Assembly: GCF_001644575.1 (NCBI RefSeq)
Contig: NZ_CP015596.1
Span: forward strand, 4,836,001-4,900,000
Direction: 5' to 3'
DNA: 64,000 bases
Source of the DNA: Mycobacterium adipatum
GTDB taxonomy: Bacteria; Actinomycetota; Actinomycetes; Mycobacteriales; Mycobacteriaceae
Under the pieces are notes generated by a model. The model was not told the DNA's origin and did not search any database. It saw only the letters and a list, made by a program, of their open reading frames with translations. Positions 39,223 through 56,900 of the stretch are shown one piece after another (the first letter of the stretch is position 1; each line of letters opens with the position of its first letter). A program made the translations under genes and the position numbers.

Positions 39223-40026
39223 CTACTCAAACACCTCGCCGGATAGCGGGCGCAAATGCACAATATCGGCGGCGGCGACGACCTCGGTGGCCTCATCGGT
39301 GGCGATGCACAGCCGGCCCTGGGCATCGACCGCCGTGGCGGTCCCCACGATCTCCCGGCCGCCGGGCAGCAGCGCGCGCACCGGTCTGCCCACGGTGGCA
39401 CTGCGCTCCCGGTAGTCCGACAGCAGCGCCGCGGCCGCACCGGACTGCCAGTCCCGGACGCGGGTGCCCAGCTCACGCAGCAGTATCCGCGCGATCTCGG
39501 TGCGCTCGGCGCCCACCCCGAGCGCGCGTACGGAGGTGGCCTGGGGCTGCCCGATCTCCTCGGGCAGCACCTCCACGTTGAGGCCGATGCCCAGCACCAC
39601 GACCGGCTTGGGCGATGCCACCTCGGCGAGGATGCCGGCGATCTTCGCCCCGCCGACCAGGACGTCGTTGGGCCACTTCACGCCGGCCCGGATACCGATC
39701 GCGGCCAGGGTGTCCGCGACGGCGACACCGGCCAGCAGCGGCAGCAGCCCCCACTGCTGTTCGTCGACGCCGTGCGCCGAGATCCCGACCGACACGATGA
39801 CCAGTCCGCGCGGCACCGCGGTCCAGGCCCGCCCGCCGCGCCCGCGTCCGGCACTCTGATGCTCGGCCAGCAGCACCGCCCCGGCGATGTCCTCGCCGGC
39901 GGCGGCCCGCGCGATCAGATCGGCGTTGGTCGATCCCGTCTCGGCGACGATGGCGAGCCGATCCCACGGTGCGCACAGGTCGGCGCGCAGGGCGTCGCGG
40001 TCCAACGGCAGCCGTTCAGCAGTCAT
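39223..40026 (-). CDS. birA: biotin-[acetyl-CoA carboxylase] ligase
   Basis: 267 residues from ATG at 40026. It activates biotin to biotinyl-AMP and attaches it to carrier proteins of acyl-CoA carboxylases. Motifs: ETGSTNADLI, the biotinyl-AMP loop SAGRGRGGRAW, KWPNDVLVGGAKIAGILAE, and GIGLNVEV. There is no N-terminal HTH domain, so it is a monofunctional ligase. Its start lies inside the last codons of the upstream lipase-family gene (11-base overlap), an arrangement possible only because of the inserted locus; in M. tuberculosis birA abuts the divergent accD5 instead, its functional partner. Confidence 0.95.
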   Translation of the reverse strand: MTAERLPLDRDALRADLCAPWDRLAIVAETGSTNADLIARAAAGEDIAGAVLLAEHQSAGRGRGGRAWTAVPRGLVIVSVGISAHGVDEQQWGLLPLLAGVAVADTLAAIGIRAGVKWPNDVLVGGAKIAGILAEVASPKPVVVLGIGLNVEVLPEEIGQPQATSVRALGVGAERTEIARILLRELGTRVRDWQSGAAAALLSDYRERSATVGRPVRALLPGGREIVGTATAVDAQGRLCIATDEATEVVAAADIVHLRPLSGEVFE

Positions 40027-41281
40027 TCGGCACCGGCTGATCGGCGAATCTCTTTGCCATCCAATCCAATTGGCTCGCGAGATCGACACCCGCGTGGCCC
40101 TTGTCCGGTTCGAACTGCACCGTCACCGTTCCTCCCATGGCACATGCGCGCGCGATGGCCGCTGCTGTCCACTCCGCGTCGACCAGGGTATCGGCCCCGC
40201 CGTACCAGACCGACAGTGGTGCCGACAGCGGCCGCTGCGGCAGTGCCCAGGCGCGGAGCAGCTCGCGCAACTGGTCGGCCGCCGCGGCCGACTGCGGTGC
40301 CACATCCTGCTGGCGCAGATGCTCGGCGGCGGCCTGGCGCTGGTAGATCTGCGGGGCCTGGCATGCGGTGAGCACCGACCAGTACTGCTCGGCTGCCCCC
40401 GCCCGGAAGTCGTCGCGCTGCAGCTCCGGGTGGATCCGGGCCAACGATTCGACGATGACCGGCATGGCCAGCAGTTGGTCGGAGGTGAGCCCGCCGCGCA
40501 TCGACTTGTCCGCGAAACCGCTGACATCGGCGGCCGGCGCCGCCGCCACCGTACCGAGCAACCGCAGTTCGGGCGCGTACACCGCGGCCTGCTCATTGGC
40601 CGCCCAGGTGGCCGCCCCGCCCTGGGAATGACCGAAGCCCAGCCATTTCGTGGACACCTCCCCGAAGGTATGACGCAGCGCACGCACGCTGTCGATCATG
40701 TTCAGACCTGCGGTCCTGGCATCGAGATACGGATGGATTCCCTTGGCGCCCAAGCCCTGATAGTCGGGCACCGCCACCGCGAACCCGCGATCGATGAACG
40801 GCGTCACGAACGCCAGCGCACCGAGCATGGTGTCCGACAGCGACGGTGCGCACGGGTTGTCGATGCCGACGGTGCCGTGGCCGATGGCGACCACCGGCCA
40901 GCCACCCGGCGGCGCCGGCCCTTTGGGCGTGAACACCGAACCCGAGACCACCGTGGGCTCGCCGGTGTCACCGAATGTGGACCGGTACAGCACCCGCGCG
41001 GCGCGGAGGTTGCGCGCTTCCACCCGGCGGGTGACCCCCGGCATGGTGGTCGCCGTGACCAGTGAGCCGGGGCCGGCGTCGGTGATATCGGCGGTGTCGA
41101 TGGCCACCGGCGCCCCGCCGGCGGACGGGAAGCTGTTCACGAACTCCAGACCCAGTGGCACCGCGAACGGCAGCAGTGCCCGGCCGAGCAGAAGCTGGGC
41201 GAGGACGACGACGATGACCGTGACGGCGACCGCTGTCCGTGCGAGCCAACGCGGCCGGTCGTTGCCTCGGGAAAGCCGCAC
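40016..41281 (-). CDS. membrane-anchored lipase-family hydrolase (paralogue A)
   Basis: 421 residues. An uncleaved-looking N-terminal membrane helix (about 14-36) is followed by an extracytoplasmic alpha/beta hydrolase of the secretory-lipase type. Shared family blocks: VLYRSTFGDTGEPTVVSG, GGWPVVAIGHGTVGI (oxyanion region), DYQGLGAKGIHPYLDARTAG, the nucleophile GHSQGG with Ser 219, the acid region YGGADTLVD and the His in DKGHAGVD. Most similar in the window to the gene at 43635-44891. It lies between the initiating sugar transferase and birA and probably acts on an acylated cell-surface molecule; the substrate is not known. Confidence 0.85.
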   Translation of the reverse strand: MRLSRGNDRPRWLARTAVAVTVIVVVLAQLLLGRALLPFAVPLGLEFVNSFPSAGGAPVAIDTADITDAGPGSLVTATTMPGVTRRVEARNLRAARVLYRSTFGDTGEPTVVSGSVFTPKGPAPPGGWPVVAIGHGTVGIDNPCAPSLSDTMLGALAFVTPFIDRGFAVAVPDYQGLGAKGIHPYLDARTAGLNMIDSVRALRHTFGEVSTKWLGFGHSQGGAATWAANEQAAVYAPELRLLGTVAAAPAADVSGFADKSMRGGLTSDQLLAMPVIVESLARIHPELQRDDFRAGAAEQYWSVLTACQAPQIYQRQAAAEHLRQQDVAPQSAAAADQLRELLRAWALPQRPLSAPLSVWYGGADTLVDAEWTAAAIARACAMGGTVTVQFEPDKGHAGVDLASQLDWMAKRFADQPVPNDC

Positions 41282-41332
41282 GGACCTACGCTACCGGACC
41301 GTCGTTGCAGGCAGGGTTGGGCGGAAGGGGCG

Positions 41333-42907
41333 TCAGTAGGCGCCGGTGCCACCCAGCACGGTACGCACGGTCTTGATAGCGATCAGCAGGTCACCGCTGA
41401 TGGACCAGTTCTCGACGTAGGACAGGTCGAGGCGCACCGAATCGTCCCAGGACAGATCGGCGCGGCCACTGACCTGCCAGAGGCCGGTGATGCCCGGCAG
41501 CACCAGCAGCCGCCGCCGAACCTGATCGGTGTAGGCATCGGCTTCACACGGCAGCGGCGGCCGCGGTCCGACCACGCTCATATCCTTGCGCAGCACGTTG
41601 ATGAACTGCGGCAGCTCGTCGATGCTGTAGCGGCGCAGGATGCGGCCCACCGCGGTGACCCGGGGGTCACGGCGGATCTTGAACAGCACGCCGCCGTCCA
41701 TCTCGTTCATATCGGCGAGACCGGCAACCATCTTGTCGGCGTTCTCGACCATCGTGCGCAGCTTGATCATCTGGAACGGCTTACCGTCCAGGCCGATGCG
41801 CTCGGACAGGTAGAACACCGGCCCACGGCTGGTGAGCTTGATGGCGATGGCGCTGACCAGCAGCAGCGGGAACGCGGCAGTCAACACAGCCAGCGACACG
41901 AAGATGTCGAAGGCGCGCTTCTGCACCTTGGTGGTGCCGCTGTACTGCGGCTTCTCGACGTGGATCAGGTTCAGCCCGGCCACCGGGCGCATGGTCAGCC
42001 GCGGGCCCGCGACATCGACCATGCCGGGCGAGACCACCAGGTCTACGCCGAGCCGGTCGAGATCCCAGGACAATTCGCGGACTCCCTCCGGGCCGAGGTG
42101 CTCGGTGGTGGTCAGCGCCACGGTGTCCGCATTGGCCTTGACGATCGCCTCTTCCACCTGGTGCTCGTCGCCCAGGATCGGGAGCGGGCCGACGCCCGGC
42201 ACGTCGAGGGTGCCGCCGCCGACGCGGCCGGTCAGGCAGACCCCGACCACCGAGTATCCGTAACCCCACGCGCGGTCCAGGGACTGCACCAGGCTGCGCA
42301 CCGCGGCCGCGTTACCGACCGCGACCACGGAGTTGACGCACTGACCACGCTTGCGGTACCAGCCGAGGACCCGTCGGCACGCGGCGCGGCCGAGGACCAG
42401 GAACACCAGGCCCAACGGGAAAGCCAGCGCCAGATAGCCGCGGGCGTACTCGGGCCGGAAGATCATGAGGGTGACGGCGACGACACCGATCGTCGCCAGC
42501 GTCGCCGAGAGCACCCGGCGGTATTCCTCGATGCCGGCTCCGACGATCCGCGGCGACCGGCTGCGGTAGGCCGTCAGCAAACCCAGCCAGATCAAGCCGA
42601 AGATCACCGACAAGAGGCCGAAGTACTTGGTGAGTGGATCGAAATCGGTAACTGGGCGCCCCAGGCGCACCATTTGAGCACAGGCCATTGCGGCACCGAC
42701 CACGACGACATCGGTGATCAGCAGGGCCAACCCGTAGCGGCGCTGCCACTGCAGCCCGTCGCCGTCGCGGGCGGGCGCCGGGCTCACCAGAGCGATCGGC
42801 GGTTCCGTCTCTCTCACCAGCGTCACGTGCGCTTCCACCTTCGTTTGCTGCACCGGTCCATGCGTGCTGCCTAAGACTATCGCTTTGTTTCCTGCTTCTT
42901 GCAACAT
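41333..42907 (-). CDS. exopolysaccharide polyprenyl glycosylphosphotransferase (initiating sugar transferase)
   Basis: 524 residues from ATG at 42907, preceded by GGGGGGA. Several N-terminal membrane helices (about 55-170) and a central nucleotide-sugar-like CoA-binding-type domain precede the bacterial sugar-transferase domain (about 335-524): KRAFDIFVSLAVL, PVFYLSERIGLDGKPFQMIKLRTM, YSIDELPQFINVLRKDMSVVGPRPP and LPGITGLWQVSGRADLSWD. It is of the WbaP/CpsE type, which moves a sugar-1-phosphate (often glucose or galactose) onto undecaprenyl/decaprenyl phosphate and starts the repeat unit. It is followed by paralogue A after 51 bases. A 727-base leader lies upstream. Confidence 0.93.
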   Translation of the reverse strand: MLQEAGNKAIVLGSTHGPVQQTKVEAHVTLVRETEPPIALVSPAPARDGDGLQWQRRYGLALLITDVVVVGAAMACAQMVRLGRPVTDFDPLTKYFGLLSVIFGLIWLGLLTAYRSRSPRIVGAGIEEYRRVLSATLATIGVVAVTLMIFRPEYARGYLALAFPLGLVFLVLGRAACRRVLGWYRKRGQCVNSVVAVGNAAAVRSLVQSLDRAWGYGYSVVGVCLTGRVGGGTLDVPGVGPLPILGDEHQVEEAIVKANADTVALTTTEHLGPEGVRELSWDLDRLGVDLVVSPGMVDVAGPRLTMRPVAGLNLIHVEKPQYSGTTKVQKRAFDIFVSLAVLTAAFPLLLVSAIAIKLTSRGPVFYLSERIGLDGKPFQMIKLRTMVENADKMVAGLADMNEMDGGVLFKIRRDPRVTAVGRILRRYSIDELPQFINVLRKDMSVVGPRPPLPCEADAYTDQVRRRLLVLPGITGLWQVSGRADLSWDDSVRLDLSYVENWSISGDLLIAIKTVRTVLGGTGAY

Positions 42908-43634
42908 TTCCCCCCAAAAATCCACCCTTCGGCTGACGCGCACGCAAATTCGCCGGCAAATATGATCTCGGTTCGGGCGGCGCGGCCGAGTGGGCGATGC
43001 GGTGAAAACTGACGCCCGCGACGATTTGACCAGGTGATTCGCGCTGGGACGAGTCTGTCAATGGGATGTACCCAAGGGTTATCGCCGGGGTTGCCGATGC
43101 GTTACACGACGACCAAGATCTCCCCGCCCCCGGCGGGTCACCCCTGGGGTCATTGCTGAAACTGCGCGCCCGTGCGAGGTTCGGCTGTTTAACGGCTTAG
43201 CCGCGACACCCGCCACCGGCAACCTGCCCAGACCTCCCGGCGAGCCCCGACCGGCCGGCCGCCGCCGCGGTGCGGCGTTGCGAGAAGTCACCGGCGGCCG
43301 GCCTGCGACTGCTTGCGAACGCGAATATTCCCTATCGCTGATATACCCCCAACGGACCGCCGACCAGCCCCGCAGATCGGCCGACGGGGCCGATACCAGC
43401 ACCGCGCCGATGGATCGGCATGGGCCGGCCGTTTCACTTCCACACCAGCGGCACCAACGCGTCTGGCACACTCGTGCCGTTCGCCGGCCGCCGCGGCGCG
43501 GCCAGCGAATCGCCTGGCGTTCGGGCCGGACCGGACGCCGCCGCGCATCGAGCCTGCCCGCACATCACCGGAACTTCGCTGCCGACGAGCGAGGCAACAC
43601 CGTCGTCCGCCGTTCCGCGAGGCGGAAGACGGCC
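42908..43634 (-). promoter_or_regulatory. 727-base gene-free leader of the sugar transferase gene
   Basis: No open frame here looks like a real gene. Reading toward the sugar transferase there is a terminator-like hairpin of the previous operon at 43600-43632, a TTGACA hexamer at 43056-43061 without a good -10, a GC-rich palindromic stretch around 43115-43150 (ACCCCTGGGGT at 43140-43150), and an AT-richer CATATTTGC at about 42960. It probably holds the promoter and a long, possibly structured 5' UTR. Confidence 0.45.
43600..43632 (-). terminator. hairpin terminator after paralogue B
   Basis: Arms 43600-43611 and 43621-43632 (CCGTCGTCCGCC / GGCGGAAGACGG) pair over 12 bp with one mismatch; the loop has 9 bases. 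It begins three bases after the TAG of the hydrolase at 43635. Confidence 0.65.
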
Positions 43635-44891
43635 CTACCCGCACGCGTTGGCCGCGGCATCCCCCGTCGCAGGCGCCACCGGCAGGCCCTGCAGCCGCTC
43701 GGCCAGCCAGCCGAGTTGATTCGCCACCTCAAGGTCGCCGTGCCCCTTGTCCGGCTGGAAATCCCACACCACGGTGCCGCCCAGCGCGCAGGCGCGCGCC
43801 AACGCGTCCGTCGTCCAGCGCGGGTCGATGTACTCGTCCTCGCCGCCGTACACCACCGACATCGGGGCGGCCGGCCGCTGCTGGGGCAACGCCCACCGGC
43901 TCAGATAGCCCCGCAACCGATCGGCGGCCTCCGGAGTGACCGGTGACAGGTCACCGGATACGAGGCGGTCGATCACACCCTCGCGGGTGTGCACCGCATC
44001 CCCGGAACAGGCGATCAGGACGTCCCAGTTCTCGGCGGCCGTGCCATGCCGGTAGTCGTCCCGGTTGATCTCGGGATGCAGCCGGGCCAGCGATTCCACG
44101 ACGAGCACCAGTGCGGCGACCTGTTCCTTGGTCAATGTGCCCTCGACGGACTTGTCCACCAGACCGGCGACATCGGCGACCGGCGCCAGCGCCAACACCC
44201 CGCGCGGCAGCAGTTCCGGGGAGTACGTCCCGGCCTGCTCCCCCGCCGCCCAAACCGCGCCACCGCCCTGCGAGCCGCCGAGGGCCGCCCAGCTGTCCGA
44301 GATGCCGGGAAAGGTATGCCGAAGTGCCCGTACCGAGTCGATCATGTTGAGCCCGGCCGTCTTCGAATCCAGATAGGGGTGGATACCCGGGGATCCGAGC
44401 CCCTGGAAGTCGGCCATCGCCACCGCGAAACCCAGTTCGGTGAGCTTGACCACCCAATCGGTCAGACCGAGCAGCGTCGCCGACAACGACGGCCCGCACG
44501 GTTCGTCGATGCCAAGGGTGCCGTGCCCGAAGGCGACCACCGGCCAGCCGCCCGCGGGTGCGGCACCGCCGGGGGTGAACACCGCCCCGGACACCACCGT
44601 CGGCTCGCCGCTGTCGCCATTGGTCGAGCGGTACACGACCCGGGCGGAATTCAGCCCCGACCCCTGCGGGCTGCGACTGAACTCCGGCATCGTCATGGCA
44701 CTGACCAGCGATCCGGGACCGCTGCCCGACAGGTCGGCACCCTCGATCGGCTGGGGGGAGACCGCGGCCGGCGGCTCACCGGAGAGCCCGACCGTCTGGC
44801 GCGCCGACGGGGACACCACCAGCACCACCGCCGCAATGAGGATCAGGACGGACAGCACGATGCCGGCCGGCAGCAGGTAACGGCGCATCAA
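43635..44891 (-). CDS. membrane-anchored lipase-family hydrolase (paralogue B)
   Basis: 418 residues. N-terminal membrane helix (about 7-28), then the secretory-lipase fold: VVYRSTNGDSGEPTVVSG, GGWPVVAFGHGTLGI, DFQGLGSPGIHPYLDSKTAG, nucleophile GGSQGG with Ser 208, acid region YGGEDEYIDPRW, His in DKGHGDLE. It shares the block LNMIDSVRALRHTF with paralogue A. Its ATG overlaps the stop of the upstream membrane acyltransferase by four bases, so the two are made together; adding and removing acyl groups on the same glycan is a natural hypothesis. A terminator follows. Confidence 0.85.
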   Translation of the reverse strand: MMRRYLLPAGIVLSVLILIAAVVLVVSPSARQTVGLSGEPPAAVSPQPIEGADLSGSGPGSLVSAMTMPEFSRSPQGSGLNSARVVYRSTNGDSGEPTVVSGAVFTPGGAAPAGGWPVVAFGHGTLGIDEPCGPSLSATLLGLTDWVVKLTELGFAVAMADFQGLGSPGIHPYLDSKTAGLNMIDSVRALRHTFPGISDSWAALGGSQGGGAVWAAGEQAGTYSPELLPRGVLALAPVADVAGLVDKSVEGTLTKEQVAALVLVVESLARLHPEINRDDYRHGTAAENWDVLIACSGDAVHTREGVIDRLVSGDLSPVTPEAADRLRGYLSRWALPQQRPAAPMSVVYGGEDEYIDPRWTTDALARACALGGTVVWDFQPDKGHGDLEVANQLGWLAERLQGLPVAPATGDAAANACG

Positions 44892-46198
44892 CTCTTCCGG
44901 AACCGCTTGACCAGGCCCAGACCCGGACGCTCCACGGCGTAGTAGGTGATGGTGGACAGCAGGATCGTCACGACGGCCACCACCGCAACATTACGGAACA
45001 TCCCGCTCCACGAGTCGCCGGCGGCCAGGTCGTAGCGGCCGAGCAGCAACAGCACCGGGTAGTGCCACAGGTACACCGACAGTGAGATCACGCCGACGAA
45101 ATGGAAGGGTTTGAGGTCGAGGAACCGCGCGATCGGGGAGTCCTTGCCGCGGGCCAGCGGCAGGACGACGATGGCGATGAACACGGCGGAGACGAAACCG
45201 ATTCCGGCGGTGGCGAATACGGTGCCCTTCACCGCGAGCACCAGCGCGGCGACGAAGGATACCGCCAGCAGCGGGAAACACAGCAGATGGATGCGCCGGG
45301 CCGCCGGGGCGGAGATGACGCCCTGTTCGATCGCGACGAACAGGATCGCGGCGAACATCCCGTAGGCGAACAGGTCGGCGTTGGTGATGAAGCTGCGCAT
45401 GAACACCGCCGCCCAGGTGGGACCCCAGTTCTGCATCAGCACCGTGTCCGCGCCGGATGCCGAGAACACCAGCGGCGCGAACAGCCGGCCGATGACCCCG
45501 ACCGCCAGCAGAATCGCCGGAGCGAGGCAGGCCAGCACCAACGGCTTGACGTCGGTGCGCTTACGCAACGCGAACAGCAGCAGGCCCAGCAGCGGCAACA
45601 TCGCGTAGAACGCGATCTCCAGCGTCAGCGACCAGGACGGGCTGATACCGGTCTGCACGTACTCGGGAATGTAGGTCTGGGTGAGCGTGAGGTTGGCCAG
45701 CAGTTCCCAGGGGTCGGTGATCATCCCGGTGCCGGCGTCGGTGCCGTGCGGCTGGATCGCCGAGTTCTGCACATAGGCCACCTGCAGCACGAAATTGCAG
45801 ATCAAGAAGATGGTCAGGTAGCCGGGGAACACCCGGAAGAACCGGTGCAGGGCGTACTGCTTGGTGTCCGGCATGACGGCTTTGGCGCGGTCCTTGGTCA
45901 GTCGCCGGATATAGGGCAGGAACAACAGGAAGCCGCTGAGCACGAAGAACAGGATCAGCGCCAGGCCCAGCACACCGAGGAATGCCTTGTCGTGGGTGAC
46001 CGGCGAATAACTCAGCGCGACGTGACCCATCACCACGGCCAGGCAGCCCAGCCCGCGGATGCCGTCGAGACCGATGATCCTGGTGTGCGTCGGCGAACTG
46101 GCCAGCACCTGGGATTCGATGACCGGCTCCGGTTGCGCCTCGGACTGCGCTTCGGCGGGGGCCCCCGCGTTTCCGCGCGCCGCGTTCGTGTCTGTCAT
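44888..46198 (-). CDS. acyltransferase 3 family membrane protein
   Basis: 436 residues with about ten membrane helices. The N-terminal IIGLDGIRGLGCLAVVMGHVALSY (about residues 40-63) has the Arg and His conserved in acyltransferase-3 proteins, which move acyl groups (often acetyl) from the cytoplasm to sugars outside. A short hydrophilic Ala/Glu-rich N-terminal tail precedes it. In a polysaccharide locus it most likely O-acylates the repeat unit. It starts 90 bases after paralogue C and is coupled to paralogue B. Confidence 0.9.
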   Translation of the reverse strand: MTDTNAARGNAGAPAEAQSEAQPEPVIESQVLASSPTHTRIIGLDGIRGLGCLAVVMGHVALSYSPVTHDKAFLGVLGLALILFFVLSGFLLFLPYIRRLTKDRAKAVMPDTKQYALHRFFRVFPGYLTIFLICNFVLQVAYVQNSAIQPHGTDAGTGMITDPWELLANLTLTQTYIPEYVQTGISPSWSLTLEIAFYAMLPLLGLLLFALRKRTDVKPLVLACLAPAILLAVGVIGRLFAPLVFSASGADTVLMQNWGPTWAAVFMRSFITNADLFAYGMFAAILFVAIEQGVISAPAARRIHLLCFPLLAVSFVAALVLAVKGTVFATAGIGFVSAVFIAIVVLPLARGKDSPIARFLDLKPFHFVGVISLSVYLWHYPVLLLLGRYDLAAGDSWSGMFRNVAVVAVVTILLSTITYYAVERPGLGLVKRFRKS

Positions 46199-46288
46199 GG
46201 GCGTTCTCCCGGTCGCGGTAGTTGGGGACCAAGGCCTCGTTCTGGCGGGGTGAGCGGCGGCTGCCGGTCGGTGTCGAATTATCGGCGA

Positions 46289-47548
46289 TCAGGTGGTCTT
46301 CAGGATCGACGGCCCGCCTTCGACCCCACAGGTGCTGTCGGCCGGCGCGTCGTCGAACCGTTTCATGATCCAGTCCAGCGACACGATGGGGTCGAAATCA
46401 CCGTGTCCCCGGCCGCCAGCGATGAACGATGCCACGGTGTCGCCCATATCGCAGGCTCTTCGCACCGCTTCGGTCGTCCAGACCACCGGCACCACGTCGT
46501 CGGCGTCGCCGTGCACCACGAACATCGGCGCGCTGGCCGGGGCCCGGGGCAGACCGCTCATCTGGTTGAGGTAGCCGCGCAGGACGTCGAGTGCTTCCGG
46601 GGTCGACGGGCGCAGGTCCTCCGGCGGCACCTGCTCGGCCACCGACAGCCGGTCCTCGGTGGCGTCGGTCGAGCAGCCCGCCAGCAGGTCCCACTTCTCC
46701 TGGACCAGGCCGCGGCGGTAATCGTCGAGGTCGAGGTCGGGATGCGCGTTCTTCAGCGACGACAGGATGAGCACCATGGCGATCCGCTGCTGCGGGGACA
46801 GCGTCCCCTCCGCGGCCATATCGGCCAGGCCGGTGATATCGGCGGCCGGCGACACGCTCACCGAGCCGATCAGCCGGGTGTCCTGCGCGCCGTATCCGGC
46901 GATCAGTTCGTTCGCCGCCCATGACGCCTGGCCGCCCTGGGACACCCCGAACGCGACCCAGCGCTCCGAGGACTCCGGCACCAGCTTGCGGGCCGCACTG
47001 GCCGCGTCGATCATGTTGTAACCGGCGGTGGTGGCGTCCAGATACGGGTGGTAGCTGTCGATGGTTCCCAGCCCCTGGTAGTCGGGCACCACCATGACGT
47101 AGCCGAGGGTCACCAGCGCGCGCACCGCGTCCGCGGCGCCCAGCAGGTTCGGCGACAGTGACGGCGCGCAATCCGACAAGACGCCGGTGGTGCCGTGCCC
47201 GAACACGATGACGGGCCAGCCGCCCTCCGGCGGTGTCCCGGACGGAGCGAACACGCTGCCGGACACCACCTGCGCGCTCCCGTCGACCCCGGAGGTCGAG
47301 TTGTAGGTGATGTGGGCGGCGACGGAGGTGACCCGCAGTAGCCGGCGGTCGATGGTCGGCAACCGGGTGGCGCTGACGAGCGCCCCGGGACCGGTCGCCG
47401 AATAGTCGGCGGGCAACTGGAGTTCGGAGTTCACCGCCGCCGTCGGACCGGGATCGGGCTGCGCGCAGCCGGCGAGCACCAACGCCGATGCCAGCACCGC
47501 ACCCGCCAGCGCCTTGCGTGTCGTCGTCGCCCGGACTCCCTGTGCCAT
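46289..47548 (-). CDS. lipoprotein lipase-family hydrolase (paralogue C)
   Basis: 419 residues from ATG at 47548, which follows AGGAG by four bases. A signal peptide ends in the lipobox VLAGC (Cys 28), so it is lipid-anchored rather than helix-anchored like A and B. The hydrolase blocks are GGWPVIVFGHGTTGV, DYQGLGTIDSYHPYLDATTAG, nucleophile GVSQGG (Ser 203), VVHGDADDVVPVVW and GGRGHGDFD. It follows the Wzz-like gene by seven bases and is part of the same transcription unit. Confidence 0.85.
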   Translation of the reverse strand: MAQGVRATTTRKALAGAVLASALVLAGCAQPDPGPTAAVNSELQLPADYSATGPGALVSATRLPTIDRRLLRVTSVAAHITYNSTSGVDGSAQVVSGSVFAPSGTPPEGGWPVIVFGHGTTGVLSDCAPSLSPNLLGAADAVRALVTLGYVMVVPDYQGLGTIDSYHPYLDATTAGYNMIDAASAARKLVPESSERWVAFGVSQGGQASWAANELIAGYGAQDTRLIGSVSVSPAADITGLADMAAEGTLSPQQRIAMVLILSSLKNAHPDLDLDDYRRGLVQEKWDLLAGCSTDATEDRLSVAEQVPPEDLRPSTPEALDVLRGYLNQMSGLPRAPASAPMFVVHGDADDVVPVVWTTEAVRRACDMGDTVASFIAGGRGHGDFDPIVSLDWIMKRFDDAPADSTCGVEGGPSILKTT

Positions 47549-47555
47549 CGAACTC

Positions 47556-48299
47556 CTAAGACCTGGCGTCACCGCTGGGCGACGTGAACGAGTTGGCGAC
47601 CTGGCGGAGCTGGCCGGGAGTCAGCACCTCGTCGCGGGCGAGTCCGAACGCCAGCACCAGCACCACGCTCAGCGCGAACCCGACACCGGCGGCCACCAGC
47701 AGGATATTGGTGATATCGGGCTGGACCTCGTGGACGACGGTCGCCGGGTCCACGGCCACCAGCTCGGCCACCGGTCCGGTGTACTGGATGGGGTCGGTGG
47801 GCTTGGCCTCGATCCATTCGAGCTCACCGGACATCTTCATCAGCACCGAGGCCAGAGTGTTGACGGTGTCGATGGTGGTTTGCGGGTCGGTGCCCGTCAC
47901 CTTCACCCGCAACAGCGCCGAGGACGGCCTGCCGAACCGCGACACACCGTAGGGCTCCCACGCCGCGGTGACGTTCGCCGCGAGTTCACTTGGCGTGAGC
48001 GGCAATCCGAGGGTTTCGATGGTGCGCTCACTGATGACCGTGGACTGGGCCAACGACACGTAGGTGGACATCCGGCTGTTGGCCCCGATGCCGCCGGCGT
48101 AGGCAGAGTAAGTACCCGGATCGCCGGCGACCTGGGCGAACAACAGTACCGAGGCGGTGTAGCTGCGCTCGGCGGTGAGCTTGTGCAGGCCGAACGCCGC
48201 GGCCGGCGCCAGCAGCGTCGCCACCAGGATGACGATCCAGCCCTTGGCGAGGATCGTCAGGTAATCCCGTGCCCGTGGCACGTCGACCGGCGCCCTCAA
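47556..48299 (-). CDS. Wzz-like chain-length/capsule biosynthesis protein
   Basis: 247 residues. Two membrane helices (about 19-40 and 196-217) flank an extracytoplasmic region, the layout of Wzz/YveK-type polysaccharide co-polymerases. Features: ARDYLTILAKGWIVILVATLLA at the start, YTASVLLFAQVAG and RVKVTGTDPQTTIDTVNTLASVL with the segment typical of Wzz domains. It controls polymer length or supports export. It lacks a kinase domain; the separate Wzz-kinase-like protein is two genes upstream. The TTG start at 48299 overlaps the previous stop; a GTG six codons later is an alternative. Confidence 0.85.
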   Translation of the reverse strand: MRAPVDVPRARDYLTILAKGWIVILVATLLAPAAAFGLHKLTAERSYTASVLLFAQVAGDPGTYSAYAGGIGANSRMSTYVSLAQSTVISERTIETLGLPLTPSELAANVTAAWEPYGVSRFGRPSSALLRVKVTGTDPQTTIDTVNTLASVLMKMSGELEWIEAKPTDPIQYTGPVAELVAVDPATVVHEVQPDITNILLVAAGVGFALSVVLVLAFGLARDEVLTPGQLRQVANSFTSPSGDARS

Positions 48300-49546
48300 T
48301 TTCTGCTCAGGCAGTCGTTGGGCGGCGGCTGTGCCCCGTCGAGGCGATCCATCAGCCAGGGCAACGTGAAACCACTGTCCAGGTCGGCGTGGCCCTTTCC
48401 GGGCCCCTTGCGGATCTCGATGTAGCTGCCCATCGCGCAGGCCCGGTCCAGGGCCCGCTCGAACCAGGACTCGTCGACCAGCATGTCCTGGGTGCCGTAC
48501 CCGACCACCATGGGCGTGGTGTTCGGCGCTTGCGGCACAGCGATTTCGGCGAGCCGGTCACGCAACCACACAACATCCTCGTAGGTGGCCGGCCGGAGGT
48601 CCTCGTTGGTCATCAGCGCCCGCACCCTGGCGATATCGTCGAAGTTGGGCGGGATGCAGTCCAGCAACTCGTCCCAGTGCTCGGCGGTGGCCCCGCGCCG
48701 GTAGTTGTCCAGGTTCATCTCCGGGTTGAACCACTTGAGCGACTGCAGCGCGAAGACCAGGGTCACCCGCTGATCGGGAGTCAGTGTGCCGTTCCACGCG
48801 GCGTCGGCGAGGCCGGACATGTCGGCGGCCGGGGCCATCGAGACCGTGCCCAGCAGGTTGAGTCCTTGACCGTAGGTGGGGGCCTGCTCGGCGGCCGCCC
48901 ACACCGCCAGCCCGCCGGCCGAGTGCCCGTAGGCCAGCCACGTCCCGGTGGTCTCCGCACCGACCCGCTGCGCGGCGCGCACCGAGTCGATGACGTTGTA
49001 GCCGTAGGTCTTGGCATTGAGGAACGGATGCTGGTAGCCCTCGACACCGGCGCCCTGGAAATCGGACACGGTCACCAGAAACCCGGACCGCACGAAGACC
49101 GACATGGTCCACGCGTTCAGCGGCAGGCTGCCGTAGAGGCTGCTCGCGCACTTGTTGAGGACACCCTTGGTGCCTTGGCCGAAAGCCAGGATCGGCCAGC
49201 CGCCCTTGGGCGGATCGCCCGGGGGTATCGCGATGGCACCGGACACCTCGGTCGGCGAGCCGTCCACCCCGGAGGTCGACCGGTAGACCACCCGCATGTA
49301 GGTGGCGTCGTCCTGGTTGAGCAGTTCGCTGCCGCTCATCGGCTCCACGGACACCAGCGAACCCGGTCCGTCGTCGGTCATATCGGGCGGCGGCAGATGC
49401 GGCTTGCCGTCGAACGGCGGCGCGAAGGTCTTGATCGCGACGGTCTCCGAGCCCGCCGGTGGTGCCGGTGCGTCCGCCGGTGCGCAGGAGGTCACCAGGA
49501 CGACTGCGACGAACAGCACCGCCGCACCACGAATCAGACTCGGCAC
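48296..49546 (-). CDS. lipoprotein lipase-family hydrolase (paralogue D)
   Basis: 416 residues from the GTG at 49546. The signal peptide ends in VLVTSC (Cys 21), a lipobox. The hydrolase core is the most divergent of the four: the oxyanion block reads FGQGT instead of FGHGT, and the nucleophile is GHSAGG (Ser 209) instead of GxSQGG; DFQGAGVEGYQHPFLNAKT corresponds to the DYQGLG block. GYGTQDMLVDESW and KGPGKGHADLD provide the acid and His. It starts four bases after the Wzz/kinase-like gene and overlaps the Wzz-like gene, so it is embedded in the export operon. Confidence 0.85.
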   Translation of the reverse strand: MPSLIRGAAVLFVAVVLVTSCAPADAPAPPAGSETVAIKTFAPPFDGKPHLPPPDMTDDGPGSLVSVEPMSGSELLNQDDATYMRVVYRSTSGVDGSPTEVSGAIAIPPGDPPKGGWPILAFGQGTKGVLNKCASSLYGSLPLNAWTMSVFVRSGFLVTVSDFQGAGVEGYQHPFLNAKTYGYNVIDSVRAAQRVGAETTGTWLAYGHSAGGLAVWAAAEQAPTYGQGLNLLGTVSMAPAADMSGLADAAWNGTLTPDQRVTLVFALQSLKWFNPEMNLDNYRRGATAEHWDELLDCIPPNFDDIARVRALMTNEDLRPATYEDVVWLRDRLAEIAVPQAPNTTPMVVGYGTQDMLVDESWFERALDRACAMGSYIEIRKGPGKGHADLDSGFTLPWLMDRLDGAQPPPNDCLSRN

Positions 49547-49550
49547 GCCG

Positions 49551-51011
49551 TTATCCCGAGCTGTGCGATGAGGTCTGCGACCTCGCGGTGCGGCTGTCGG
49601 CGTCGTCCTCGGCGGCGGCCGAGGGCGCGGCGGCCGCGTGCGCGCCACCGTGGTGCTTGCGATCGGCGGACAACTCGCGCCGATGCCCGGGTTCGCAGGT
49701 CGCCACCACGCCGAGCACCGGGGCATGCGCGGTCTGCAGCACCTTGAGCGCCTTGCGCAGCGCCGAGGTCTTGGTGTGCCCCAGTCGGCCGAGCACCAGT
49801 GCACCGTCGCCGAGCGCGGCGGGCACCGCACCGTCGGCGTACTTGGTCAGCGGCGGGGTGTCGATGATGACGTAGTCGAAGTGGCCGCGCAGCAGCTCGA
49901 GCACCCGCTGCACCCGCTGGTCGCCCCACAGCTCACGACGCACCGACGGCACGGGGCCGGACGGCAGCAGCGCGAACCCGGACTGCGGGACCTCGATCAG
50001 CGACTCGGACAGATCATGCTGGCCGGCCAGCAGCGTGGTGAACCCCTTGGTGCCGGCCTGCGACAGGGCGGCGCCCTCGAGCGCGAGCAGCTGCGGCAGT
50101 TCCGGATTCACCAGGTCGCCGTCCACCAGTACCACCGAGTGGCCCGATTCGGCGAAGGCGACGGCCAGGTCGATGGCGGTCGAGGACCGGCCGTCCTGGG
50201 CCGACGGGCTGGTCACCGCGATCACCCGGGGGTGCTGTCCGGTGGCGTTGCGGGCGAACTGCACGTTGGTGCGCAGCTCACGCAGGCGCTCCACGGCCAG
50301 GCCGCCGGCGTCGATGTCGATGATGCCGTCGCGGCTCTGCTTGTCGTCGACCAGCGTGCCCAGCAGCGGGATCCCGGTGACATCTTCGATGCGCTCGCTG
50401 CGGCGCAGCTTGGTGTCCGAAAGACCCAGCGCGATCGCCAGCAACACACCGAGCACCAAACCACCCACCGCGCCGGCGGCCAGCCGGGTGGTCAGTCCCA
50501 TCGCGGGCACCTTGGTGCCGTAGCTGGCGTCGTCGACGAGCACGGCGGCCGCCGCGGCCTCACCACCGCGGCGCGAGGTCTCCAGCTCGGCCGTCACGTT
50601 GACCAGTTGGTCGGCGACGGCATTGGCGTAGCGCTGGGCGGCCGCGGGATCCGGATCGGTGGCGGTGACGTCGAGCAGCACGGTCTGAGGCAACGGGACG
50701 GCCGTGATCTTGGCGCGCAGCTCGTCGACGGTCAGCGGCGCCTTGAGCTGGTCGATGGCCCGCGCGGCCACCTGATCGCTGGTGGCCAGACCGGCGTAGG
50801 AGAAGACGCGCTCCTGGGAGAACAGGTTGTTCTGGTAGGCATCGCCCACCGAGGATCCGCTCTGCGTGGTGACGAACAACCGCGTCGTCGATGAGTACTG
50901 CGTCGTCGAGAAGAAGGTGGTTGCGTAACCCACGGCGACACCGATCAGCGTCGCCAAGAGCACCACCCACCACAACCGGCGAAAAATTCGCAGGTAATCA
51001 CCGATGGCCAA
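49551..51011 (-). CDS. Wzz/BY-kinase-like polysaccharide co-polymerase with degenerate P-loop
   Basis: 486 residues from a TTG at 51011, preceded by GGAG at seven bases. Wzz domain with membrane helices at about 13-33 and 176-196, then a CpsD/Wzc-like nucleotide-binding domain. The Walker A reads SPSAQDGRSST (about 268-278): the invariant Lys of GxGKST is Arg and the flanking glycines differ. Walker A' VVLVDGD (297-299) and DTPP (384) remain. The C-terminal tail is Ala/Ser-rich and has no Tyr cluster. It therefore looks like a structural regulator rather than an active tyrosine kinase (inference). First gene of the operon that runs to paralogue B. Confidence 0.88.
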   Translation of the reverse strand: MAIGDYLRIFRRLWWVVLLATLIGVAVGYATTFFSTTQYSSTTRLFVTTQSGSSVGDAYQNNLFSQERVFSYAGLATSDQVAARAIDQLKAPLTVDELRAKITAVPLPQTVLLDVTATDPDPAAAQRYANAVADQLVNVTAELETSRRGGEAAAAAVLVDDASYGTKVPAMGLTTRLAAGAVGGLVLGVLLAIALGLSDTKLRRSERIEDVTGIPLLGTLVDDKQSRDGIIDIDAGGLAVERLRELRTNVQFARNATGQHPRVIAVTSPSAQDGRSSTAIDLAVAFAESGHSVVLVDGDLVNPELPQLLALEGAALSQAGTKGFTTLLAGQHDLSESLIEVPQSGFALLPSGPVPSVRRELWGDQRVQRVLELLRGHFDYVIIDTPPLTKYADGAVPAALGDGALVLGRLGHTKTSALRKALKVLQTAHAPVLGVVATCEPGHRRELSADRKHHGGAHAAAAPSAAAEDDADSRTARSQTSSHSSG

Positions 51012-51192
51012 GGGAGCACTCCATTCGCTCTTGGGTCGCCACAACAATGCAACGATAGCGTCAACAACAGTAGCTGCACACTTTGCCGAGCGCCCCTGTA
51101 GCGCGGCCAGCTGAGTCGATGCAAGGATAGTTAAATGCAACGACGGTGCGGTAAAGCCGTGAGGATCATGACGCAATGAGGACGAGTCCGCA
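51012..51192. promoter_or_regulatory. divergent promoter region of the kinase-like and Wzy-like genes, with repeated AATGCAACGA
   Basis: 181 bases between divergent starts. The 10-mer AATGCAACGA occurs at 51046-51055 and 51134-51143, and GATGCAAGGA (two mismatches) at 51118-51127. A TTGACG hexamer (minus) and AT-rich TAACTAT / TAGTTA words near 51124-51135 may be promoter elements. The repeats could bind a regulator of the whole locus. Confidence 0.45.
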
Positions 51193-52686
51193 ATGAAACT
51201 CGGCACGTCGGGGCGCCCCAACCTGCTGGTCGCAGCCGCGATCATCGTCGTGGTCCCGTTGATCGCCGCCGCGGTGGCACAGGGCGGCAAGCTCGGGGTC
51301 ATGGCCGTCGGCGGGTTGATTGCTCTGGCGGTCGGCGTCTACATCGGTCTTCGCCATCCGCTGTGGCTGTACTGGGGTATGGCGATCGCCGTCGGCGCGC
51401 TGCCGTTCGGCTACTTCCCGGGTGTGCACCTGCCGCTGTATCTGCCGTTCGCCGGCGGGGCGCTGGTGGCCGCGCTGGTGCATCCCAACGCCGCCAAGCG
51501 CTTCCCGGTGTTGGGCAGCACGCTGGCCAAGGCCGTGCTGGTGCTGGTGGTCATCTCCGCGGTGTCGATGGTGATCACCTTCTCCTCGATCGTGAACATC
51601 CTCGACTACACCAAATGGGCGATCGCGACGGGCGCCTTCTTCGCACTACTGGCGCTACCGCGCCAGCATCTGGTCAAGTTCGGCCGGATCTTCGTCTACG
51701 CGGCCAGTTTCAATGCGTTGATCGGTATCGGGTCCATTGTGCTGGGGTCGAATCGGCTACTGCTGCAGCCATTCCGGATCTTCGGTTATGCGGTGGCCGA
51801 TACCGAACGCTTCTTCTTCACCGGTGGCACGGCCGACCTGCGCGGTGACGGCCGGTTCGCGGTGGCCGCCGACAGTCAGGCCTTCAGCCGGCTCGGCGGG
51901 CTGTGGCTGGACCCCAACGCCGCCGGTATCGGTCTGGTCATCTCGTTCGTGATCGCCATGGTGGTGTTCACCGGCTGGCGCCGGGTGGTGCTCGCCGCGA
52001 TCCTCGGTTCGGCCATCGCGCTGACCCTGAGCCGCTCGGCCATCGTCAGCGTATTGGTCGGTGTGGTACTGGTTTTCGTGTTCCACCCGATGCGCTCGCG
52101 CGATCGCCAGATTCTGATCGGCACGTTGACGCTGGCCTTCATCGGCGCCTTCATGGTGCCCTCGGTGCGGACCCGGCTGATGGGCACGCTCAGCTCGAAT
52201 GACGCCGGTGCCAGCGACCGGGTGGACTCGATCCGGGAGTTTCCCGGCCGCATGGACGGGCACTGGCTGTTCGGTTGGGGGTGGTCGCAGCGCGAGTTCA
52301 AGGACGGCGCATACGCCTTCATCGAGAACTTCGTCTCCAACGCCCCGTTGATCGCGATCCACCGCGGCGGGATCTTCGTCGGCGCGGCGTTCCTGGCCGT
52401 CGTCGTCACCGGGTGTGTAATTGGTTACCGGTTGTTGCGTTCGAATTCGCTACCCGCCGCACTTTATGGCGGTGTATTCATCGGATTCTCGATTGTGGCA
52501 TTGAATCTCGACCACCCCGTGGTGGTGATCCCACAGATCGTGTTTCTGTACACCATTTTCCTGACATTCCTGGCCTACGCCGATCAACTCCGGCGCGAGG
52601 ACAACGAGCGCTCGGCGCTGGAGTCGCGCATCGCCGAGGCCACCCGACCGGCACCGCCGGCCCCGGCGCGCGCCGGCGCCGGCTAG
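51193..52686 (+). CDS. O-antigen ligase/polymerase-like membrane protein (Wzy-type)
   Basis: 497 residues with about ten to twelve membrane helices and one large extracytoplasmic loop (about 325-400: RDGHWLFGWGWSQREFKDG-like region with DRVDSIREF), the layout of Wzy polymerases and O-antigen ligases; the WLDPNAAGIGL and LTLSRSAIV segments are typical of the PF04932 family. In this setting it most likely polymerises lipid-linked repeat units outside the membrane. The C-terminal 30 residues are Pro/Ala-rich and cytoplasmic. It is the only gene of the locus on the plus strand; its TAG stop shares CTAG with the convergent glycosyltransferase. Confidence 0.85.
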   Translation: MKLGTSGRPNLLVAAAIIVVVPLIAAAVAQGGKLGVMAVGGLIALAVGVYIGLRHPLWLYWGMAIAVGALPFGYFPGVHLPLYLPFAGGALVAALVHPNAAKRFPVLGSTLAKAVLVLVVISAVSMVITFSSIVNILDYTKWAIATGAFFALLALPRQHLVKFGRIFVYAASFNALIGIGSIVLGSNRLLLQPFRIFGYAVADTERFFFTGGTADLRGDGRFAVAADSQAFSRLGGLWLDPNAAGIGLVISFVIAMVVFTGWRRVVLAAILGSAIALTLSRSAIVSVLVGVVLVFVFHPMRSRDRQILIGTLTLAFIGAFMVPSVRTRLMGTLSSNDAGASDRVDSIREFPGRMDGHWLFGWGWSQREFKDGAYAFIENFVSNAPLIAIHRGGIFVGAAFLAVVVTGCVIGYRLLRSNSLPAALYGGVFIGFSIVALNLDHPVVVIPQIVFLYTIFLTFLAYADQLRREDNERSALESRIAEATRPAPPAPARAGAG

Positions 52687-53822
52687 CGCGGCGGGGTTGC
52701 CGCCAGCAGCGCCTCGACCGCGCGGTGGGGTCGCCGCTGCTGCCAGTACTGACGGTTGAGCGCGTACAGCCGGTCCCCCGCCGCGACGGCGGCCGGCACA
52801 TCCAGCAGCAGCCGCCGGCATTGCCCGACGAAATCGGCATCGTCATCGTGGACGCCCAGCTCCAGCAGGTCACCGAGCGATCCGACCGCCGCCGTGGTGC
52901 CCACCACCGGCAAACCCATTCTGGCCGCATCGAGGATCTTCACCCGGACGCCGCCGCCGGTGCTGATCGGCGCGATCATGGCCCGGCAGGTGCCGAGGAA
53001 TCCGGCCAGGTCGTCGACGAAGCCCAGGTCACGCACACCGTCGGGATAGTGCGGCGCCTTGGCCTTGGCGTGTTTGGCGCCGATCACGCACAGTTCGGCA
53101 CCGGGGATACCCGCCGCGATCTGCGGCCACAGCCGCAGCGCGGTCAGGAAGGCTTCCTGGTTCGGGGGCCAGTCCCTGGTGCCCATCAGGACCAACCGGC
53201 GCCCGGTGCCCGCCACATCGACCTGCGCCGCCGGGGGCAGCGTGATGTCGAGCCATCGTGCGGACGCAATCCCGTTGGCGCGGTAGAACTCCGCCTCCTG
53301 GGCGTCGTAGGTGCCGACCGCGTCGGCGGCCCGGGCGACCCGCAATTCGTCGCGCACCAACCGACCGGCCTGCAACCGCCCCAGCAGACCCCGGCTGGCC
53401 CGCCAGACCAGCGATTCGCTGACGTGGGTGTTGACGACGAAGCGCGCCCCCCCGAATTGCGTGCTGCGCAGGAACGATTCGGCCATGTAGCTGTGCTCGG
53501 CGACGAACACATCGGCCGGGGAGGCGGAGATCGCGGCCACCAGATCGTCGTTGTCGAACCGCGCGTGCGCCAGGCTGCGCCCGGTACGCACGGTATCGGT
53601 GAGCAACGCCAGCGGCCGCACCCCCGACTTGGCCACCCGCTGCAGTTCGGCGCCACCCTCGACCAGGTCGGTGCTCACGCGCCCCGGTCGCTGGTGCGAC
53701 AGGCAGATGACCGATACCGCATGGGAATCCGCGGCCAGCCGCATCACCAACCGGGAGAGTTCCACATCCCCGCCGTGTTCGGCGACCGGATCTTTGGACA
53801 GCAGGAACGTCGCTGTGGTCAT
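52683..53822 (-). CDS. glycosyltransferase, group 1 (GT4-like)
   Basis: 379 residues, GT-B fold. The C-terminal nucleotide-sugar domain has RRLVLMGTRDWPPNQEAFL, ELCVIGAKHAKAKA, and the sugar-nucleotide loop PISTGGGVRVKILDAARMGLPVVGT (about 300-325), which is the family's acidic/Gly-rich signature with the E of the EX7E motif replaced. The N-terminal domain is acceptor-binding. The sugar is unknown. Last gene of the minus-strand unit 58079-52683; its start overlaps the flippase stop by four bases. Confidence 0.88.
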   Translation of the reverse strand: MTTATFLLSKDPVAEHGGDVELSRLVMRLAADSHAVSVICLSHQRPGRVSTDLVEGGAELQRVAKSGVRPLALLTDTVRTGRSLAHARFDNDDLVAAISASPADVFVAEHSYMAESFLRSTQFGGARFVVNTHVSESLVWRASRGLLGRLQAGRLVRDELRVARAADAVGTYDAQEAEFYRANGIASARWLDITLPPAAQVDVAGTGRRLVLMGTRDWPPNQEAFLTALRLWPQIAAGIPGAELCVIGAKHAKAKAPHYPDGVRDLGFVDDLAGFLGTCRAMIAPISTGGGVRVKILDAARMGLPVVGTTAAVGSLGDLLELGVHDDDADFVGQCRRLLLDVPAAVAAGDRLYALNRQYWQQRRPHRAVEALLAATPPR

Positions 53823-55009
53823 TCGCGGACCTTCTCGGCGGGGGTCGTCGTGGGCTTGCGGTACAGCACGTAGGCATAGATGGCCAGCAGCAGAGCGTCG
53901 GCGATCACCGTGGCGATCGCGGCCCCGACCGCACCCGCCACCGCCAGCAGCGCGACCAGCCCGAGCTTGACCGGGAGCAGGCTGATATTGGCCACCAACC
54001 GGGTGGTGTCACGCCGCTGTAGGTAGAGCACCGCCTGGAACACCGAGGTGATGGTGCGCATCCCGCAGAACACGCTCATGATGATCATCGCCACGGCGAG
54101 CTGCTGGGGTGCGGGGGTGAACAACATCACCACGCCGACGATGAGGACCAGCGACCCGGCGACCCCACCGAGGATCAGCGTGCTCTTCAGCGGCGGGCCG
54201 GCCGAGAGCTGCCCGCCTCCTTCGCGCAGCGAGCGGTTGTAGGACATGCCGAAGGACTGCCCGACCGCGACGATCGCGATGGTGACGGTGACGGTCAGCG
54301 CGTAGTACCCGACGATGGTGTCATCGGTCAGCCACCCCAGCAGCAGCACGTCGCCCTGCAGATAGGCGGCCAACCCGAGCATCTCGCCGATCAGGATCGC
54401 GATCAGCTTCGGCGGGCCCGGCATGCCGGGGCGGTGCCGCAGCACCACGAAGCCGACCACCACGGCGATCACCGCATACGGCGCCACCAGGAACAGGCTG
54501 GCGACCTGCAGGGTGGGATCGTCGACCGCGAAGACGTACCCGGCGGCGCACGCCACGCTGGCAACCTGGCGGATGGTGTCCAGCTGCGCGACCCGCTGCG
54601 GCTGACCGTCGCGCGCCCAGTGACTCTGGTAGGCCTTCAAGATGATCTCGCCGCCGGCCACGAACAGCCCGAACCAGGCGATGTAGCTGACCTCGACCAG
54701 GGCCGCCCCGGCCGCCATCAACGTCAGGCCGAGCAGGTACCGGGTCACCCGTTCGCGCAGGAACCGTTCCTGCGACTCGCGCACCGCGCGTACCGCGAAC
54801 GGATTGTCCAGCGGCGGCCCGATCAGCGAGAACGCGGCGTAGGCCATGCCGTACTGGCCGTAATCGGCAATACCGAGCTGAGCGATGATGATCACCGTCC
54901 AGAGCAGACCGACCCCACGTCCGCCGTAGAGCCAGAACACCGCCCACAGGGTGCGCATCAGGTGATGCGAGGTGGGGGCGGGCGCCACCGGCTCGGTCGG
55001 TTCGCTCAC
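53819..55009 (-). CDS. Wzx-like polysaccharide repeat-unit flippase
   Basis: 396 residues from GTG at 55009, four bases after the previous gene. About twelve hydrophobic helices; the first (TLWAVFWLYGGRGVGLLWTVIIIAQLG) and the motif DYGQYGMAYAAFSLIGPPLDN are typical of MVF/PST-type transporters (Wzx). It would flip lipid-linked repeat units across the membrane. It completes, with the Wzy- and Wzz-like proteins, a Wzx/Wzy-dependent assembly line. The frame continues upstream, but that part overlaps the previous gene and has another composition. Confidence 0.88.
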   Translation of the reverse strand: MSEPTEPVAPAPTSHHLMRTLWAVFWLYGGRGVGLLWTVIIIAQLGIADYGQYGMAYAAFSLIGPPLDNPFAVRAVRESQERFLRERVTRYLLGLTLMAAGAALVEVSYIAWFGLFVAGGEIILKAYQSHWARDGQPQRVAQLDTIRQVASVACAAGYVFAVDDPTLQVASLFLVAPYAVIAVVVGFVVLRHRPGMPGPPKLIAILIGEMLGLAAYLQGDVLLLGWLTDDTIVGYYALTVTVTIAIVAVGQSFGMSYNRSLREGGGQLSAGPPLKSTLILGGVAGSLVLIVGVVMLFTPAPQQLAVAMIIMSVFCGMRTITSVFQAVLYLQRRDTTRLVANISLLPVKLGLVALLAVAGAVGAAIATVIADALLLAIYAYVLYRKPTTTPAEKVRE

Positions 55010-55013
55010 CCGC

Positions 55014-56893: not shown

Positions 56894-56900
56894 TTGGCCG

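Follow-up and report, generated by a model that had tools for sequence, protein, structure and literature searches.

The 64,000-nt window analysed here (positions 4836001–4900000 of contig 1 in the 6.05-Mb genome of Mycobacterium adipatum) carries four paralogous genes for LIP-family hydrolases, termed LipA, LipB, LipC and LipD (A–D), within a gene cluster for exopolysaccharide (EPS) assembly. A sequence-only reading of this window had described them as surface-anchored, lipase-like paralogues alternating with polysaccharide genes and had proposed distinct tasks for them on the polymer, such as the removal of different acyl groups. We found all four genes on the minus strand where that reading had placed them, with refined starts for LipB and LipC and a LipD frame that reaches further upstream, and the genes that alternate with them encode a sugar transferase, an AT3 acyltransferase and Wzz proteins. 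In window coordinates, the cluster reads as follows:

40016–41281, minus strand: LipA, LIP-family hydrolase with predicted N-terminal helix anchor, triad intact (GHSQGG)
41333–42943, minus strand: EPS polyprenyl glycosylphosphotransferase, the initiating sugar transferase (TIGR03025, 403.2 bits; cut-off 295.55)
42944–43634, no strand: gap without a convincing gene
43635–44888, minus strand: LipB, LIP-family hydrolase with predicted N-terminal helix anchor, triad intact (GGSQGG)
44888–46198, minus strand: AT3 (Acyl_transf_3, PF01757) membrane acyltransferase without SGNH domain
46289–47572, minus strand: LipC, LIP-family hydrolase, predicted lipoprotein, triad intact (GVSQGG)
47556–48299, minus strand: Wzz2, chain-length-determinant-like (weak PF02706 match, below cut-off)
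48296–49546, minus strand: LipD, LIP-family hydrolase, predicted lipoprotein, triad intact (GHSAGG), between both Wzz genes
49551–51302 (open reading frame as listed), minus strand: WzzParA polysaccharide co-polymerase (PF02706, TIGR01007)
51193–52686, plus strand: Wzy-type polymerase/ligase (PF04932)
52683–58079, minus strand: glycosyltransferases, weakly matching Wzx flippase candidate and hexapeptide-repeat protein of the cluster

Along the minus strand the order is thus WzzParA, LipD, Wzz2, LipC, AT3, LipB, sugar transferase, LipA, and several of these genes meet end to end. A 4-nt overlap joins the TTG start of Wzz2 to the LipD stop; the ATG of LipB at 44888 (a TTG is present at 44891) shares one base with the AT3 stop (TGATG); and LipC either overlaps Wzz2 by 17 nt from a start at 47572 or begins 7 nt behind it from the alternative start at 47548. 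The open-reading-frame tool puts the start of the LipD frame at 49831, and the true WzzParA start probably lies near 50984, judging from where relatives begin to match. These overlapping gene ends, together with the cross-genus orthology of the four positions, the pseudoenzyme copies and SASA gene of relatives described below, and a fifth LIP gene, go beyond the sequence-only reading. The fifth gene (window 13065–14372, minus strand) is distant, stands outside the cluster and scores 189 bits with the family model, well above the four, but 119 bits with a profile of the four cluster proteins.

That the four proteins are lipase-like paralogues is confirmed by PF03583 scores of 75.3, 41.6, 56.8 and 51.3 bits for A, B, C and D (curated cut-off 23 bits) and by pairwise identities of 42–53% over 352–395 residues (BLASTP, E 1e-83 to 1e-148). 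The genome holds seven PF03583 matches in all; the four cluster LIPs score 678–712 bits against their own four-protein profile, and two of the other three score 119 and 123. The sequence blocks reported as shared are present, GxSxGG in all four proteins and others with substitutions (YNST in C, GQGT in D, DFQG in B and D, HPFLN in D). Invariant in all four are Ser219, Asp364, His396 and Cys144/307/380/421 (LipA numbering), the first three of which we take, from motif and spacing, to be the catalytic triad, and all four proteins look catalytically competent. An AlphaFold2 model of LipB (mean predicted local distance difference test score, pLDDT, 93.7), compared using VIA-align, has the fold of Candida antarctica lipase A (CalA) and Xanthomonas oryzae LipA, cap included; the closest solved relatives carry the names esterase or lipase. 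The expected split into two helix-anchored proteins and two lipoproteins was borne out by prediction, with A and B each having a strongly hydrophobic N-terminal helix and C and D a lipobox (ending LAGC and VTSC, respectively), and these anchors would place all four outside the cytoplasmic membrane. Among the named contigs listed, the closest LipA relatives (89–91% identity) belong to Mycolicibacterium frederiksbergense LB 501T and two other strains.

The surrounding genes point to a Wzx/Wzy-type assembly line. The initiating sugar transferase scores well above the TIGR03025 cut-off and the Wzy protein reaches 35.5 bits with PF04932 (cut-off 31.7); the Wzx candidate at 53819–55198 scores 16.3 bits with PF01943, under the cut-off of 28.2, and has no NCBIfam match. 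WzzParA combines a Wzz domain (PF02706, 36.2 bits; cut-off 25.5) with a tyrosine-autokinase-type ATPase (TIGR01007, 110.7 bits; cut-off 108.05). Bacterial tyrosine kinase co-polymerases of the Wzc/CapB type have a Walker A lysine and a C-terminal tyrosine cluster. In the window protein this lysine is replaced by arginine (GRSST) and the last 60 residues contain no tyrosine; arginine likewise occupies the position in all 28 of 36 WzzParA rows in which a Walker A motif was found (one row being the window gene), the motif not being found in the remaining 8. WzzParA is therefore a possible pseudokinase co-polymerase.

To place the cluster among relatives, we collected 65 named loci with peptide patterns drawn from the four proteins, a set that indicates at least 65 such loci and is not a census; LIP domains matching less than 230 positions of the profile, most of them truncated at a contig end, were kept out of tree and triad counts, as were loci L010–L019 (repeat genomes). 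The order WzzParA-D-Wzz2-C-AT3-B-...-sugar transferase-A recurs in Mycolicibacterium, and shorter versions of it occur in Williamsia and Gordonia. At least two scored LIP domains are present in 44 of the 65 named loci listed (in L072 and L077 as one fused protein), and in the DNA retrieved for these 44 a Wzz gene is seen in 41, a sugar transferase in 36 and an AT3 gene in 29. Slot-D genes stand directly behind a Wzz gene in 37/37 cases and are followed by a second Wzz gene in 33/37 (named loci; query-visible genes). Some of the related clusters also contain glycoside-hydrolase-like genes with LGFP repeats (L060, 2909–4453; L099, 11997–13565 and 15152–16708).

Co-occurrence in genomes agrees with this linkage. 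Some LIP match at E ≤ 0.001 is found in 113 of 118 same-genus genomes, mostly to distant LIPs; among the matches listed, two or more copies above 280 bits lie close together on one contig in 12. WzzParA exceeds 420 bits in exactly these 12 genomes (the next match is 278 bits), and AT3 at E ≤ 1e-30 is found in 11 genomes, all within the 12; Fisher tests that ignore common descent gave ~1e-14 for AT3 and ~1e-16 for WzzParA. Family-wide, a copy at E ≤ 1e-60 is present in 142 of 301 genomes, and three or more copies in 33 genomes of five genera (few candidates per genome scored). Chance neighbourhood was excluded for cluster-type copies by the conserved order together with the co-occurrence, and scattered, unlinked best homologues, the sign of chance named in the sequence-only reading, were not seen among the closest homologues.

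Unlinked relatives exist too: 14 of the 65 named loci listed (L070–L072, L074, L075, L077, L091–L093, L096, L097 and L100–L102) show no cluster gene beside the LIP in the DNA retrieved, by the queries used. One of them, L093, is a LIP row in a Kitasatospora record that groups tightly with Williamsia rows and may reflect assembly contamination. Such solitary genes are what one would expect if LIPs mainly scavenged external esters and their place in an EPS cluster were incidental, as would the family name (Secretory lipase) and the generic names of close homologues (lipase family protein, putative lipase, alpha/beta hydrolase or hypothetical protein among the best 120 of 773). The fixed slots with overlapping or abutting gene ends across genera, the co-occurrence with one WzzParA type, and the largely slot-specific anchors and retained pseudoenzyme orthologues described next make scavenging the least probable of the explanations we weighed.

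Phylogenetic analysis with relatives (206 domains in a quick tree, 68 rows in a careful one) recovered separate D, C and A/B groups in both trees, each with its own neighbours and anchors; in the careful tree each group forms one side of one branch, with bootstrap support of 99–100% (paired supports 99/97, 100/99 and 100/98). Slots D and C each include Mycolicibacterium, Williamsia and Gordonia members, from which the slots appear to be old. The A/B split came later than D and C: both A (26 rows; support by the Shimodaira–Hasegawa-like approximate likelihood-ratio test, SH-aLRT, 96) and B (33 rows; 87) are mycobacterial groups in the quick tree. Outside the three groups fall 8 careful-tree rows and 16 quick-tree rows, 6 of the latter being the two LIPs ahead of an A/B-type LIP in L080, L081 and L084, loci of other gene content whose genes we did not force into a slot. 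Anchors were called by a rule of thumb (whether a lipobox lies close to the most hydrophobic stretch, with no start codon determined) and, so predicted, largely follow slot: lipoproteins in 38/38 D and 46/46 C proteins (named loci plus window), helix anchors in 26/26 A and 27/33 B proteins (the others having 4 lipoboxes, 1 no strong stretch and 1 too little sequence) and in 27/37 other A/B proteins (8 lipoboxes, 2 without). Five B-clade genes stand right after Wzz2, in the C position; four of them (L052, L055, L057 and L064) are the four B lipoproteins, and L058 has no lipobox.

The triad is intact in 26/26 A proteins, in 32/33 B proteins (the remaining one is cut by a contig end) and in 35/37 other A/B domains, where the exceptions are the N-terminal domains of fused proteins whose second domain is intact. 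It is intact in 41/46 C proteins (named loci plus window), the five others being the second copy of L043 and the solitary L097, L100, L101 and L102, and in 0/10 C-type copies of further genomes without the cluster. Slot D differs: 23/38 proteins retain the triad, one lacks the histidine alone, and all 14 that lack the serine lack the histidine as well. These 14 genes form one clade in the quick tree, so Ser/His loss within slot D may have happened once; simple parsimony counts six changes of serine state over the whole quick tree and three over the pruned careful tree. Pseudogene decay was rejected as the cause, since the dead copies keep an open frame across the whole domain and nearly always the four cysteines, and their median ratios of nonsynonymous to synonymous substitution (dN/dS) are 0.144 for D (15 pairs) and 0.147 for C (27 pairs), compared with 0.132–0.201 for live D, C, A and B copies (NG86; pairs at 70–97% identity with dS <1.6 only, which are not independent). 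Because dead copies stay in place under constraint like that of live ones, slot D appears to be worth keeping without serine hydrolase activity, at least in one lineage. Elsewhere, L084 has two dead LIPs ahead of a live one, and in L077 (8477–10975) and L072 (7877–10990) two LIP domains are fused in one open frame, the first without the catalytic serine and the second intact; a model of the L077 protein shows two alpha/beta domains (pLDDT 81.6).

The solitary slot-C-like LIPs without serine and histidine (L097, 9842–11029, and L100–L102) have surroundings of their own. In L097 an Esterase-family (PF00756) gene comes next on the same strand, followed by a run of genes on the other strand that includes one for a GT2-type glycosyltransferase, and L101 has an opposite-strand run that resembles it.

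For the claim of distinct tasks, these results cut both ways: cluster linkage and distinct positions support it, and the Ser/His loss in 14/38 slot-D proteins speaks against all four proteins removing different acyl groups. Another reading is a structural set: as members of a LIP complex at the Wzz co-polymerase, D and C would mainly bind acyl groups, with catalysis left to A/B-type copies only. Joint Ser/His loss under constraint like that of live copies, the dead-plus-intact domain pairs of the two fused proteins and the arrangement in L084 would all suit such a complex. We nevertheless consider it very unlikely, as D and C have full triads in the window and its closest relatives, and the model of the fused protein does not fix how its domains are arranged.

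What lies beside the LIP genes bears on their chemistry. Pfam matches the AT3 protein (436 aa) with PF01757 alone (85.1 bits; cut-off 31) and shows no fused SGNH domain in it; among NCBIfam models, SucT gives a weak match (19.2 bits; cut-off 1275) that is confined to positions 6–379 of 723, the first half of SucT. Passages of two articles state as an open question how AT3 proteins without SGNH domain complete their reaction (PMC9558356, PMC9833829). We examined AT3–LIP junctions in 25 named loci and the window, taking a LIP within 600 nt downstream and its nearest in-frame start. At 25 of the 26 junctions, in Mycolicibacterium, other mycobacterial and Gordonia loci, the LIP start falls −8 to +5 nt from where the AT3 stop codon ends, and the LIP is A/B-type. 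The exception is the sole Williamsia junction (L076, +16), for which a cruder script gave an ATGA overlap.

A second candidate for ester chemistry is found in relatives. At the position of the 690-bp window gap, in which reading six frames revealed no convincing gene, many relatives have a SASA gene between the A/B-type LIP gene and the sugar transferase, and two inspected loci (L060 and L062) have a DUF218 gene between these two. The SASA gene occurs in 27 named loci listed (three of the checked genes pass PF03629); in 24 of them it comes immediately behind an A/B-type LIP, and in the other three the LIP ahead of it is cut by the locus end. No signal peptide was evident by eye in the one SASA protein read. 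The window cluster lacks a SASA gene, and the L062 SASA protein has no match in the window at E 1e-5. A known conserved RNA element was ruled out, as the window has no Rfam match at gathering scores. An unlinked SASA gene elsewhere in the same genome (L104, 9834–10715; C1, ~3355834–3356715) is 67% identical to the L062 cluster gene and has neighbours that do not match the cluster.

Taken together, we regard it as highly probable that the LIPs serve the acyl-ester chemistry of this polysaccharide, and the evidence suggests that they attach fatty or acetyl groups to the polymer, shift them or take them off, with some copies acting as non-catalytic partners. We infer the location outside the membrane in vivo, the acceptor (the EPS), the acyl type and the direction of the reaction (transfer or removal). 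Given the tight junction with the AT3 gene, transfer to the polymer is at least as likely as removal, and the same junction, the missing SGNH domain and the membrane anchor are our reasons for preferring LipB as the partner that AT3 would have outside the membrane. In the resulting model, the four LIPs would form the acyl-ester-handling part of a Wzx/Wzy exopolysaccharide line in mycolic-acid bacteria: AT3 would carry acyl groups across the membrane and hand them to the catalytic serine of LipB, which would esterify the polymer or the lipid-linked repeat unit; the second A/B-clade copy, LipA, would perform the same chemistry at another step; and the lipoproteins C and D would process or hold the acylated chain at the Wzz proteins during polymerisation, LipD being competent-looking here and presumably a pseudoenzyme partner in a related lineage. 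This is our favoured reading, held tentatively, at somewhat less than an even chance. Its extension to a rule, by which stand-alone cluster AT3s can use a LIP-fold partner instead of an SGNH protein and lipase-derived lipoproteins at Wzz repeatedly became binding pseudoenzymes (for acyl groups or polymer), strikes us as more doubtful.

Several observations weigh against LipB–AT3 transfer. Operon linkage does not prove protein contact, same-genus genomes are not independent samples, and LIP relatives with known activity are hydrolases. Five of the 30 AT3-bearing named loci have no junction: L086 ends after its AT3 gene, and in L078, L087 and L099 (Williamsia) and L083 (Gordonia) no LIP lies within 600 nt downstream. 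Conversely, L059, L060, L062 and L065 span WzzParA to birA with LIPs and no recognised AT3. In five of the 12 clustered-LIP genomes, six AT3 homologues lie away from any LIP; the only AT3 found in G034 has no LIP beside it, and the clustered-LIP genome G069 (73% complete) shows no AT3. SASA is an alternative esterase or transferase for AT3. For the fused L077 protein, the model does not settle the domain arrangement (predicted template-modelling score 0.56), and its first domain is covered by 2 of 20 alignment rows only.

Next after LipB–AT3 transfer we rank deacylation, in which surface enzymes would trim AT3-added acyl groups with a preference per slot. Intact triads in all four window proteins and solved relatives named esterases or lipases agree with it, relatives have a SASA carbohydrate-esterase gene added to the operon, and an acyl esterase adjoining its acyltransferase would be co-translated as well. 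Slot D is apparently not needed as a serine hydrolase, because 14/38 of its proteins lack serine and histidine, and LIPs persist in the four clusters that have no recognised AT3 and thus no obvious in-cluster source of groups to remove; we consider deacylation less likely than not.

LIP clusters without a recognised AT3 would be compatible with transacylases resembling mycobacterial Chp2, which would move acyl chains from envelope lipids onto the polysaccharide independently of AT3 and yield a fatty-acylated EPS. Chp2 is described as an alpha/beta hydrolase that carries a single N-terminal transmembrane helix and transesterifies at the periplasmic face (PMC4183827), and Rhodococcus EPS with fatty acids is reported (PMC12298843). 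A and B may have a similar layout, judging by hydrophobicity and, for LipB, by its model; export is a prediction. However, Chp2 is described with a cutinase-like motif, and the tight AT3 junction would stay unexplained, which makes this account improbable.

The locus offers a gene-level candidate partner for SGNH-less AT3 proteins. In environmental mycobacteria, Gordonia and Williamsia, the cluster can also serve to mark an extracellular polysaccharide that is probably acylated, and it presents a case of enzyme/pseudoenzyme sets maintained by gene order. Beyond its end, the EPS cluster is bordered by a KshA gene and a flavoprotein gene that is possibly KstD (window 58215–61180, minus strand).

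We found no description of LIP hydrolases in these EPS clusters in titles and abstract openings of the open-licence PMC papers listed, and several known systems offer partial parallels. CalA-like lipases belong to the same Pfam family (PF03583) and have a Ser-Asp-His triad, and LipB shares the CalA fold over ~340 residues including the cap region, at 15–17% identity in structural alignments; unlike them, the window LIPs are predicted to be membrane-anchored, are encoded in EPS operons and have pseudoenzyme orthologues in some lineages. The Xanthomonas oryzae LipA esterase (3h2g–3h2k; 18–19% identity) is secreted and plant-directed and is not known to belong to a polysaccharide assembly operon. 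For the mycolic-acid bacteria, the Rhodococcus EPS that contains fatty acids offers a precedent for acyl groups on EPS; that article discusses EPS genes of Rhodococcus, and since words starting with lipase are absent from its main text, it makes no link to LIP genes (PMC12298843). Chp2, with its N-terminal transmembrane helix and an outside alpha/beta hydrolase domain that transesterifies a glycolipid (PMC4183827), resembles the predicted layout of LipA and LipB; it differs in its cutinase-like motif and its acyltrehalose substrate, whereas the window LIPs sit with Wzy polymer genes. A parallel in logic may be the AT3–SGNH acyltransferases (OatA, OafB and mycobacterial SucT), since an AT3 protein with an extracytoplasmic partner of Ser-hydrolase fold would follow the same scheme; unlike in these fused enzymes, the window AT3 stands alone and its linked partner candidate has the LIP fold and is encoded by a separate gene.

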